Assembly: GCF_000337615.1 (NCBI RefSeq)
Contig: NZ_AOII01000091.1
Span: 1-64,000 of the forward strand
Direction of reading: 5' to 3'
Origin: Natrinema pallidum DSM 3751
GTDB taxonomy: Archaea > Halobacteriota > Halobacteria > Halobacteriales > Natrialbaceae
DNA length: 64,000 nt
Shown here: positions 30,369 through 33,075 of the stretch, one piece after another
Layout: the number at the start of each line of letters is the position of its first letter
Position numbering within the stretch: the stretch's first letter is position 1
Translations under genes and position numbers: made by a program
Notes under the pieces: generated by a model
Told to the model about the DNA's origin: nothing
Databases searched by the model: none
What the model saw: only the letters and a program-made list of their open reading frames with translations

Positions 30369-30430
30369 TCCGCAACCACTAAACGCGGCTCACCCCTACG
30401 AACGTCCAATGACCGACTGGACGGAGAAGT
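30369..30430 (+). repeat. Direct repeat, copy 1 of the rfcL promoter and 5' end
   Basis: These 62 bp match 31194-31255 with one mismatch (30423 g versus 31248 c); the first 54 bp are identical. The copy holds the rfcL core promoter (CCACTAAACG) and the first seven rfcL codons. The single mismatch is silent (ACG/ACC, Thr). Identity ends abruptly on both sides. Between the two copies lies the VapBC cassette. Confidence 0.97.
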
Positions 30431-30462
30431 CCGGAAAATACGATATAGATTCGATGTACTGA
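30409..30462 (+). pseudogene. Truncated rfcL 5' copy (17 codons)
   Basis: From ATG 30409 the frame gives MTDWTEK, identical to the RfcL N terminus, then leaves the homology and stops at TGA 30460-30462. It is a by-product of the duplication. It retains the rfcL promoter, which may now drive transcription into the VapBC genes. Confidence 0.85.
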
Positions 30463-30585
30463 GAACGTCGAATACCTCTCGTCGTTCGCTCGTCGATGCG
30501 GAGATGAATTCCGGCCAGTAGAGATAGAATGGGTAGCTCTGTATATCGGGGAACATTTTTGCTTTCGCCCACCATACGCCAAGAT

Positions 30586-30816
30586 ATGTCAGACGTAGCG
30601 CTGGACGACCGCGGTCGTCTCACGCTCCCCAAGGAGGTCCGAGAGCGATACGGGGACCGATATCGCGTTGTTCAGCTTCCAGACGGAGTCAAATTGGTTC
30701 CGGTCGCTGACGACCCGCTCGAGGCACTCAGAGACGAGTTTGCGGATGTCGAGAAGTCGGCCGACGAACTTCGTGAAGAAGCACGCGAAGCAGCGCTCGA
30801 CGAGGCCGGACAGTAA
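30586..30816 (+). CDS. vapB: VapB-type antitoxin, AbrB/SpoVT-fold
   Basis: A 76-residue protein. MSDVALDDRGRLTLPKEVRERYG is an AbrB/SpoVT swapped-hairpin DNA-binding domain (quoted start: DDRGRLTLPKEVRERYG). The acidic C-terminal helix (about 45-76) would wrap the toxin. It should neutralise the PIN toxin and repress its own promoter. Its stop codon is directly followed by the toxin ATG. The DNA is less GC-rich than the flanks, especially 30430-30585. The whole cassette lies between direct repeats of the rfcL 5' end. Confidence 0.88.
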   Translation: MSDVALDDRGRLTLPKEVRERYGDRYRVVQLPDGVKLVPVADDPLEALRDEFADVEKSADELREEAREAALDEAGQ

Positions 30817-31191
30817 ATGTATGCGGAAACCGACTTTCTGCTCGCGCTCATCAAGGATGAAGACTGGCTCGGAGACGCCGCCGAAGCGGTATACCGAGAC
30901 CGACAGGACGAGTTGTGGACGTCGCAATTCACGCTCATCGAACTCCTGTTAGTAGCCTACCGCGAGGACCGCGATACCGAACGGGTCGTTTCGAACGCCG
31001 CCAACCTCGTCGAGGTACGCGGTGACGCGGAGACGGTCGTTACGGCGGCGACGTACGTGGAGGACCACGGGTTCACACCGTTCGACGCCCTTCACCTCGT
31101 CGAATCCAACGGGGATACTATGGTCTCGAGCGATGACACATACGAGGACGTGACGCCTCGTCTCGACTTGAAGACCGTCACCGAAGAGTAG
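30817..31191 (+). CDS. vapC: VapC-type PIN-domain ribonuclease toxin
   Basis: A 124-residue PIN protein. The acidic metal-binding residues are in order: Asp6 (YAETDFLLALIK), Glu42 (FTLIELLL), Asp90 (FTPFDALHLV) and Asp106/107 (SSDDTYED). PIN toxins cut specific RNAs such as initiator tRNA or rRNA; the target here is unknown. The gene follows vapB with zero spacing, typical of a toxin-antitoxin pair. Its stop codon (31189-31191) is only two bases before the second rfcL repeat, so there is no spare DNA on its 3' side. Confidence 0.9.
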   Translation: MYAETDFLLALIKDEDWLGDAAEAVYRDRQDELWTSQFTLIELLLVAYREDRDTERVVSNAANLVEVRGDAETVVTAATYVEDHGFTPFDALHLVESNGDTMVSSDDTYEDVTPRLDLKTVTEE

Positions 31192-31193
31192 CG

Positions 31194-31255
31194 TCCGCAA
31201 CCACTAAACGCGGCTCACCCCTACGAACGTCCAATGACCGACTGGACCGAGAAGT
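31194..31255 (+). repeat. Direct repeat, copy 2 (functional rfcL promoter and 5' end)
   Basis: Matches 30369-30430 over 62 bp with one silent mismatch. It begins about 40 bp before the rfcL ATG, just enough to include a BRE/TATA-like element (CCACTAAACG at 31201-31210, about 28 nt upstream), and ends after codon 7. rfcL therefore keeps a complete promoter despite the insertion. Confidence 0.97.
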
Positions 31256-32736
31256 ACCGTCCGACGACGCTGTCGGAGGTACGCGGCAACAACAAGGCCC
31301 GCGACCAACTCGAGGAGTGGGCCGAAAGCTGGGACGACCACCGCAAGTCGGTGATCGTCCACGGCAGCCCCGGCGTCGGGAAGACCTCCGCCGCCCACGC
31401 GCTGGCCACCGACATGGGTTGGCCGGTAATGGAGTTGAACGCCAGCGACAGCCGCGGAGCCGACGTCATCGAGAAGATCGCCGGCGAGGCCGCCAAGAGC
31501 GGGACCCTCACCGGCGGCGAGGCGGGCCGCCGGCTTGTCGTTCTCGACGAGGCGGACAATTTCCACGGCAACGCCGACTACGGCGGTTCTCGAGAGGTCA
31601 CGCGCGTCGTCAAGGACGCGAACCAGCCGATCGTCCTCGTCGCAAACGAGTTCTACGACATGAGCAAGTCGCTGCGAAACGCCTGTGAGACGATCGAGTT
31701 TCGCGACGTCTCGAAGCGATCGATCGTCCCCGTCTTGCGGGACATCTGTCGGCGCGAAGGGGTCGAATTCGAGGAGGGCGCCCTCGAGAAGATCGCCGAA
31801 TCGACCAGCGGCGACCTGCGCTCGGCGGTCAACGACCTGCAGGCGGTCGCCGAGGAGGCCGAGCGCCTGACCGTCGACGACGTGGTGACGAGCGAGCGCG
31901 ATACCACCGAGGGCATCTTCGATTTCCTCGACGAACTGATCAAAGAGAAAGACGCCGAGGGTGCGCTGCGAGCCTCCTACGACGTCGACGAGACGCCGGA
32001 CGATCTGCTCAACTGGATCGAGGACAACGTGCCGAAGGACTACGAGGGGGCCGAACTCGCCGACGCCTACGAGTTCCTCTCGAACGCCGATCGCTGGCTG
32101 GGTCGCGTCCGGGCCACACAGGACTACTCCTACTGGCGGTACGCGACGGACAACATGACCGCCGGCGTCGCCGCTTCGCGACGGGGCGAGAAGGGTGGCT
32201 GGACCCGCTACGGCCCGCCGAGCTACTGGTCGAAACTCGGCCGCACCAAAGGCACCCGGAACACCCGCGATTCGATCGCCGAGCGCATCGCCGAGCGGGA
32301 AGGCGCAAGCGTCGCAACCGCCCGCCGGGAGATCCTTCCGTTCCTATCGGCGATGACCCACCACTGCAAGAACCGAGCACTGACCGTCCGCATGGCTGCG
32401 GCCTACGATCTCGACGAATCCGAGGTCTCCTTCGTTACCGGCAGCGGAAAGGACACCAACAAAGTCGAATCGGTCGTCGCGGACGCCGACGAACTGAAAG
32501 CCGAAAAAGCGGTCGAGCACTCGGGCAACGCCTTCTTCGAGGCCGAGCGCTCGAGCGGTGCCGACGAGACGGCCGCCGCTGCGACCGACGAAAGCGGCGA
32601 CGGCGACGACTCGAGCGGGCAGCAGGCGCTCACGGCTGCGAAGTCGGACGATAGTGACGGCGGCTCCGTGTCGGACGACTCGTCGTCGGTCGACGACCCC
32701 GACGACGATCAGGCCGGGCTAAGCGACTTCATGTGA
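31234..32736 (+). CDS. rfcL: Replication factor C large subunit
   Basis: A 500-residue clamp-loader subunit that, with RfcS, opens the PCNA ring and loads it on primed DNA. The AAA+ core has Walker A HGSPGVGKTSAAHAL (42-56), Walker B LVVLDEADN near 99-107 and the sensor/arginine region through about 230. The helical collar follows. The C terminus is an acidic Ser/Asp/Glu-rich tail (from about 415) ending QAGLSDFM, a good PIP-box (QxxLxxFM) for PCNA contact. The start at 31234 lies in the second 62-bp repeat. Replication genes are not otherwise clustered here. Confidence 0.97.
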   Translation: MTDWTEKYRPTTLSEVRGNNKARDQLEEWAESWDDHRKSVIVHGSPGVGKTSAAHALATDMGWPVMELNASDSRGADVIEKIAGEAAKSGTLTGGEAGRRLVVLDEADNFHGNADYGGSREVTRVVKDANQPIVLVANEFYDMSKSLRNACETIEFRDVSKRSIVPVLRDICRREGVEFEEGALEKIAESTSGDLRSAVNDLQAVAEEAERLTVDDVVTSERDTTEGIFDFLDELIKEKDAEGALRASYDVDETPDDLLNWIEDNVPKDYEGAELADAYEFLSNADRWLGRVRATQDYSYWRYATDNMTAGVAASRRGEKGGWTRYGPPSYWSKLGRTKGTRNTRDSIAERIAEREGASVATARREILPFLSAMTHHCKNRALTVRMAAAYDLDESEVSFVTGSGKDTNKVESVVADADELKAEKAVEHSGNAFFEAERSSGADETAAAATDESGDGDDSSGQQALTAAKSDDSDGGSVSDDSSSVDDPDDDQAGLSDFM

Positions 32737-32877
32737 GCAGTGTGCCGGCGGCGGCGTACGGACGCAGGGGGATATCGGAGCGGCGTTCGGATACCCTCGG
32801 CAACATCTGTCTACATATTGACTGACCGGCACTATTACGTCGCTGAACGATGAGAGTACTTCTTGGTGACCCGCCGA

Positions 32878-33075
32878 ATGACTGAGACACATAGCTGCCC
32901 GCTCTGTACGGAGACGTACGACGATCGCAACGACCTCCGCGTCCATCTCGAGGTGACCCACCGGAAATCCGAAGTCGTCTCCTCTCTGGTCGAACTCGAC
33001 GCGGCGGTGACCGATATCCCGTCCGATCACGAGTCGACGACCGTCGACGAAGAGCCACGGGCACCGTCCGCCTGA
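32878..33075 (+). CDS. Single C2H2 zinc-finger protein
   Basis: A 65-residue protein with one classical C2H2 finger: CPLC, 12 residues, then HLEVTH (C-x2-C-x12-H-x4-H, residues about 6-27). The tail is acidic and Ser/Thr-rich. Haloarchaea carry many one-finger proteins of this size, and a few regulate lipid or biofilm genes, but most are uncharacterised. ATG 32878 was chosen so the finger sits at the N terminus; an in-frame start 15 nt upstream is possible. It is convergent with bioD. Confidence 0.82.
   Translation: MTETHSCPLCTETYDDRNDLRVHLEVTHRKSEVVSSLVELDAAVTDIPSDHESTTVDEEPRAPSA

Follow-up and report, generated by a model that had tools for sequence, protein, structure and literature searches.

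In the window, the whole stretch of 64,000 nucleotides of Natrinema pallidum DSM 3751 analysed here, the start of the replication gene rfcL carries a vapBC toxin-antitoxin pair that seems to be a very small mobile element without an integrase, landing at a site that larger elements with an integrase also use. From the comparison of haloarchaeal genomes we consider it likely that vapBC is the cargo of a non-autonomous integrative cassette of ~825 bp, moved in trans by a tyrosine integrase of a clade tied to rfcL. If this is true, it would give very small toxin-antitoxin pairs a way to move that needs no transposase, by means of a borrowed site-specific integrase and a fixed landing site. The rfcL start codons are identified as a dedicated haloarchaeal attachment site, and rfcL is a replication gene with a promoter and N-terminal codons that are exchanged horizontally.

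The vapBC cassette between two copies of the rfcL start

The locus includes the following features:

30369..30430, + strand: left copy (attL-like), cut off, with the rfcL promoter, leader, ATG and codons 1-7, from repeat comparison
30409..30462, + strand: dead rfcL start frame of 17 codons (MTDWTEKSGKYDIDSMY), opened by the left copy
30415..30422, + strand: left attachment core GACTGGAC, from comparison of G009, G015 and G077/G078; the core also bounds integrase-bearing elements
30441..30458, + strand: left arm CGATATA-gatt-CGATGTA, a 7-bp direct repeat with one mismatch and 11-bp spacing
30586..30816, + strand: antitoxin gene of vapB type (AbrB/MazE-like), 76 aa, with weak profile matches under the cut-offs
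30817..31191, + strand: toxin gene of vapC type, PIN domain, 124 aa, above the Pfam cut-off
31194..31255, + strand: right copy (attR-like) with the rfcL promoter, leader and codons 1-7, taken as cassette-borne by analogy with G009, G015 and G078
31234..32736, + strand: target gene rfcL, for the 500-aa large subunit of replication factor C (NCBIfam RfcL, 1.8e-269)
31240..31247, + strand: right attachment core GACTGGAC, from comparison of G009, G015 and G077/G078 and from the ends of integrase-bearing elements

The two repeat copies are 62 nt each, identical at 61 positions and 825 bp apart, and the 763 bp between them contain vapB and vapC; the next-longest direct repeats between 29000 and 34000 are 31 nt long at 71% identity. 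Their sole mismatch is in codon 5, ACG on the left and ACC on the right, Thr in both, and the vapC stop codon is separated from the right copy by two bases. A previous sequence-only reading had described this arrangement, i.e. an intact VapBC-type pair between 62-bp repeats, the silent mismatch, a dead 17-codon start on the left with the real rfcL on the right, and the two-base gap, and all of it was confirmed. The sister species Natrinema altunense AJ2, which was assembled separately, is arranged alike, and the repeat is therefore not an assembly artefact. The attachment core is duplicated at both ends of the cassette, inside a fixed target gene, and the cassette is present as a single copy in its own genome. 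No integrase gene of its own was found in the 763 bp between the copies, and the cassette was therefore classed as a non-autonomous unit working like a tyrosine-integrase element.

VapC matches the PIN profile PF01850 with 33.6 bits against a cut-off of 23.6. VapB is MazE/AbrB-like at an E value of 0.0016, which is under the Pfam cut-off; it scores 18.8 bits with PF04014 (cut-off 24.7) and is likewise under the cut-off of TIGR01439. In a plasmid record, a homologous pair bears the annotation AbrB/MazE/SpoVT and PIN. The vapB start at 30586 was chosen by homology, a longer frame being open from 30529. The sequence-only reading also suggested that vapBC may use the captured rfcL promoter; vapB is preceded by a conserved stretch of its own, and 20 of the 50 full cassettes in the family lack a left copy at the limit of 34/62. 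Median dN/dS was 0.10 for vapB (1030 pairs) and 0.08 for vapC (1072 pairs), and the frames are open in 49 and 48, respectively, of the 50 full cassettes found in the family. By this sequence measure, vapB and vapC are under purifying selection, and an addictive effect of VapBC may select for retention of the cassette.

When members of the genus were compared, the first ~72 bp of rfcL (codons 1-24; window 31234-31305) were found to vary little in their DNA, synonymous sites included, which may reflect recombination at the site or some constraint. Downstream of rfcL, a 70-aa frame at 32863-33075 on the + strand includes a C2H2 zinc-finger-like stretch that scores below the Pfam cut-offs.

Movement of the cassette and the point of exchange

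In genomes G009 and G015, of the window's genus, and G078, of another genus, the arm and vapBC are 99.1-99.3% identical and the right leader is 100% identical, while the left flank is 49-58%, the left leader 38-59% and the rfcL body 84.5-88.6% identical. As the cassette and right leader are alike and their surroundings differ, it is a unit of ~825 bp that has moved, replacement promoter and first codons included; judged from these identities, the cassette has moved between species and between genera. The right leader in these genomes is that of the cassette and the left leaders differ by host, which means that the right copy did not arise from the target. In the window the two leaders are identical, and its right promoter and first codons may thus be assigned to the cassette by analogy only. 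The sequence-only reading had a toxin-antitoxin unit entering the 5' end of rfcL with the promoter kept, and this part stands; the idea of a duplicated target was abandoned, since in G009, G015 and G078 the right promoter came with the cassette. It had also held that relatives with highly diverged repeats would argue against a recent targeted insertion. Such relatives were in part found, yet which copy differs argues for mobility.

In G077 and G078 the two copies hold different rfcL starts, ATGGACTGG on the left and ATGACCGACTGG on the right. At codon 6, the left copy reads GAA in G009, G015, G077 and G078, and the right copy reads GAG in G009, G015 and G077 and GAA in G078. From these starts and the codon 6 pattern, the exchange was placed in GACTGGACGGA, covering codons 3-6 (+7 to +17 of rfcL), and the insertion point is the same across the 15 genera with left copies. 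Codon 5 (+15) was considered as a marker of the cassette and dropped, as it varies among cassettes of other genera.

Distances in vapBC are only weakly correlated with those in rfcL over the 50 cassettes (Spearman 0.14, p 0.09), and vapBC is closer than rfcL in 637 of 1110 inter-genus pairs. The right leader has a partial correlation of 0.22 with vapBC (p 0.005) and of 0.26 with rfcL (p 0.0015); as it correlates with rfcL as well as with vapBC, over long times it does not travel purely with the cassette. G010, which has the cassette, was compared to its sister G011, which has only an older vapC remnant: the left side of G010 is 91.9% like the region upstream of rfcL in G011 and its right side 83.6%. 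Weaker support comes from the cassette-free G014 and G025, which are 75-79% like the left side of G015 and 64-65% like its right side.

The rfcL attachment site, its integrases and the proposed mechanism

In three genomes of the family, G079, G062 and G099, the native promoter is split from rfcL by about 29, 14 and 13 kb, respectively, and a Pfam phage integrase gene adjoins rfcL. Thirteen of the 125 family genomes match this integrase at E ≤ 1e-30, and it is found at rfcL only in these three. When the G062 integrase was searched against 391 class-wide genomes, 12 matches at E ≤ 1e-55 were obtained; 11 of them are encoded on the strand opposite to rfcL, 405-657 bp upstream of its start. The 11 rfcL-site integrases group as a single clade, apart from the 10 relatives at other places (support 95/96). 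Since 11 of the 12 relatives are there and form one clade, the rfcL start is an attachment site. The integrase is a tyrosine recombinase (Pfam PF00589) whose profile matches XerC, XerD and XerA chains of solved structures; R, K, H, R, H and Y are invariant in three aligned integrases, and these we take to be the catalytic residues of tyrosine integrases. The sequence-only reading, which found the insertion to resemble att-type integration without an integrase, comes close in that the event looks like att-type integration and the unit carries no integrase; the site does have an integrase, located on larger elements in other haloarchaea.

The left end was recognised for eight of the 11 elements (G375, G333, G157, G257, G062, G099, G079 and G188, the last on another contig), and reads as rfcL promoter block, start and core, followed by the element. 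Lengths where both ends were found range from 7.6 to 35 kb (G375, 35 kb; G333, 24.5 kb; G157, 26.6 kb; G257, 7.6 kb). In G204 the left end, with an arm as in G157, is inverted and 1.7 Mb from rfcL (L259 against L232), possibly through a chromosomal inversion with a breakpoint inside the element; the elements of G212 and G143 gave no recognisable left end. The same core bounds the integrase-bearing elements and the cassette. Unlike the cassette, the large elements leave rfcL behind the element's own sequence. A conserved CTCCGCAACCACTAAACGC block, which we take to be the promoter of the presumably essential rfcL, occurs across most of the family but not in G055, G062, G079, G099 and G119. In G055, two cores enclose an insert of 2.06 kb, and none of the PF00589 matches of this genome is located there.

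Searching for the rfcL promoter pattern gave 26 stretches, of which only L215 had a weak rfcL-like match (24% identity) and L211 one unrelated core-like match; with the aligned integrases as query, a single locus was obtained, at 24%. The insert of about 29 kb in G079 (L176/L177) has low GC3 and encodes an Eco57I-type restriction-methylation gene beside the rfcL integrase, a phrog_1979 gene (a viral family of unknown function) and, by eye, a resolvase-like gene.

Past the core, ten other inserts (eight integrase-bearing, G055 and G002) mostly include two 7-bp direct repeats at 11-bp spacing. The best 7-mer repeat averages 5.7/7 in these inserts, compared to a mean of 3.33 and a maximum of 4.40 in shuffles (n=2000); seven inserts score 6-7, G157 scores a weak 5/7, and G002 (4/7) and G375 (2/7) are without a spacing-11 repeat. 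The left ends of 30 cassettes, with the consensus GTCGGGAAAATACGATGTAGATTCGATGTACTGAG, average 5.13/7 (shuffles: mean 3.22, maximum 3.83, n=2000), a test that overstates independence because the cassettes are related by descent. The distance of the arm from the core agrees within about 2 bp between the cassettes and the seven inserts scoring 6-7, and the integrase-element arm nearest to that of the cassette is CGATGTA-agac-TGATGTA, from G079. An arm scoring at least 20/35 is present in 32 of the 50 full cassettes and absent in 18; the null of 191 window segments has its 95th percentile at 19, and the cassette of the window itself is among these segments and presumably accounts for their maximum of 33. 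Among vapB-bearing loci of named genomes, such an arm was found in 15/36 at rfcL vs 1/21 away from it, the sole off-site case (L309) being a contig that ends inside vapC, and in none of 12 rfcL-site loci from genera outside the family. By eye, no right arm like those of the big elements was seen in the cassette.

In the proposed mechanism, a circular form of the cassette would join vapC to an rfcL promoter with its leader and first codons, followed by the core GACTGGAC and then by the repeats of the arm. An integrase of the rfcL clade, supplied in trans by a larger element, would exchange strands between the cassette core and codons 3-6 of the chromosomal rfcL. The resident promoter and start would be left behind as the dead left copy, and rfcL would continue under the promoter and first codons of the cassette; rfcL would stay expressed because the cassette brings these along. 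In the draft genome to which the window belongs, the integrase finds no match at E ≤ 1e-30, which counts against the trans model. We also lean towards the wider view of the toxin-antitoxin pair as a minimal mobile element in its own right, one that has no integrase, parasitises rfcL-targeting integrases, carries the rfcL promoter and first codons, and is kept by addiction from being lost through its own repeats.

Homologous recombination offers an unlikely though workable alternative, i.e. a single founding insertion that was then spread by ordinary chromosomal exchange between strains, with one crossover within the short left copy and the other in the first 75 bp of rfcL, which are conserved. 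Haloarchaea exchange DNA readily, the cassette is without an integrase and the rfcL promoter stretch is also conserved; the region from +15 to +75 of rfcL, 88-97% identical in six pairs, could have served for the right crossover. However, the left exchange would have to lie within 11 bp beside leaders that are only 38-59% alike, and the presence of an integrase clade at the same core and the common arm repeats would be left unexplained.

Two further explanations fit the data less well. The pair may have entered through some mechanism in which 62 bp of the target were copied, the copies diverging later, and the 61/62 match in the window, like the matches of at least 56/62 in 11 of 30 genomes, is what such a duplication would give. 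We regard it as very improbable, since in G009, G015 and G078 the right leader is cassette-borne and the left leaders are host-specific, and since one insertion point is used across 15 genera. A target origin of both repeats is thus contradicted by the sequences of these three genomes, while the window alone would fit either origin. Hardly credible as a general account is that vapBC is an old, vertically inherited neighbour of rfcL that was often lost, with the repeats as relics: its spread over 19 genera of the family and 12 loci outside, at near-constant spacing to rfcL, fits such a history, but cassettes 99% identical occur in genera whose rfcL differs by 13-15.5% and whose left flanks are unrelated. 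Vertical inheritance may apply to older copies that lack the left end.

Movement by an rfcL-clade integrase has partial counterparts among known systems. Restriction-modification genes in Helicobacter have been described as inserting with long target duplication, and they resemble the rfcL cassette as an addiction-type gene pair between long direct target repeats. The cassette differs in that one repeat is insert-borne where this can be resolved and in that an integrase clade for the site exists. As described in PMC4482086 and PMC8409611, the dusA-associated islands of bacteria have, like the rfcL site, a family of tyrosine integrases dedicated to the 5' end of a single protein-coding gene, and diverse cargo; they are bacterial, use another target gene and carry their own integrase, whereas the window cassette has none and brings a copy of the rfcL promoter. 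SXT at prfC is also mentioned in PMC8409611. Archaeal tyrosine integrases, as reviewed in PMC8371274, share with the rfcL case the PF00589 domain, a target gene that is then expressed from element-borne sequence and tandem insertions at one site. The site section of this review deals with tRNA genes (the pTN3 type uses their 5' half); neither 'replication factor' nor 'rfc' is found in its main text, and elements without an integrase are treated there as presumably due to gene loss after integration. According to PMC9376610, the CR2-sul2 unit is moved in a recA-deficient host by the integrase of the genomic island GIsul2 through shared att cores, as we propose for the cassette; CR2-sul2 lies downstream of guaA, has resistance cargo and was shown experimentally to move, whereas for the rfcL cassette such movement is proposed from sequence. 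Among the matches listed in the open-licence literature, none reports the rfcL start as an attachment site.

Distribution of the cassette and other cargo at the site

A DNA search found rfcL in all 29 genomes of the genus, the window's included. Twelve of these have a full vapBC at rfcL, ten of them with left copies, some degenerate; of the remaining genomes some have only 3'-vapC pieces or a lone vapB-like gene at rfcL, and some have other cargo. Among the Natrialbaceae, 125 genomes were searched, of which G064 and G124 gave no match and G063, G116 and G123 were at contig ends, leaving 120 readable rfcL starts (rfcL is present twice in G021 and one copy was counted). Fifty of these have the full pair (19 genera), 20 only parts or a single gene, and 50 neither. 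Relatives with and without the insert at the same position thus exist, which the sequence-only reading had proposed to look for, and the insert is not peculiar to this genome. A protein search of named genomes found rfcL 44-157 bp downstream of VapC in 37/59 loci; 12 of the 37 are from other genera or unplaced archaea, e.g. Halorubrum, Halorussus and Salinigranum. The rfcL start is a family-wide insertion hotspot.

A left copy of at least 34/62 was found in 30 of the 50 full cassettes (15 genera) and none at that limit in 20, G004 and G023 included. These left copies are not due to chance, as sliding each genome's own 62-mer along the reverse strand of the upstream region gave at most 33/62 in the 120 genomes. 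On the forward strand, G038, G085 and G089 reach 34-36/62 also at places that do not read as copies, and 34/62 is therefore a soft limit. In ungapped comparison the left and right copies are alike at 56/62 or more in 11 of the 30 genomes, the window among them, and at 34-54/62 in the others. The near-identical copies count against the cassette model, which would need conspecific donors or gene conversion to account for them. The full cassettes that lack a left copy or an arm, and the missing right arm, likewise weigh against it.

No flanking repeats of at least 25 bp were found around off-site vapBC in 3.5-kb stretches of three loci. Relatives of the pair, with VapC at 83-88%, were observed in Haloferax, Halogranum and Halorarius (L280, L284-L289, L291 and L292), with no rfcL within the flank examined and no arm of at least 20/35; these loci are possibly the ancestral chromosomal form. 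Neither a VapC relative nor the exact arm motif was found in viral contigs, and phage records gave no match. Four plasmid records matched: two have distant vapBC-like matches (73%), one is a short match in Haloferax larsenii, and one, a record of Natrinema thermotolerans, matches in two pieces (15% of the query) at its rfcL.

Other genes were observed at the same site. G044, G071, G017 and G038 (L095, L120, L058 and L089) have a histidine-kinase-like gene of 645-972 aa, its domain assigned by eye, which in G044 lies between a left copy (56/62) and rfcL and has its own copy of the rfcL promoter. G024 (L045) encodes a NotI-type restriction endonuclease and a DNA methylase beside a vapC piece, another addiction-type cargo. 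In G002 (L046), a BAT/HTH_10 regulator and, by eye, a response-regulator-like gene lie between the left copy and rfcL, the start of which differs here (ATGGATTGG).
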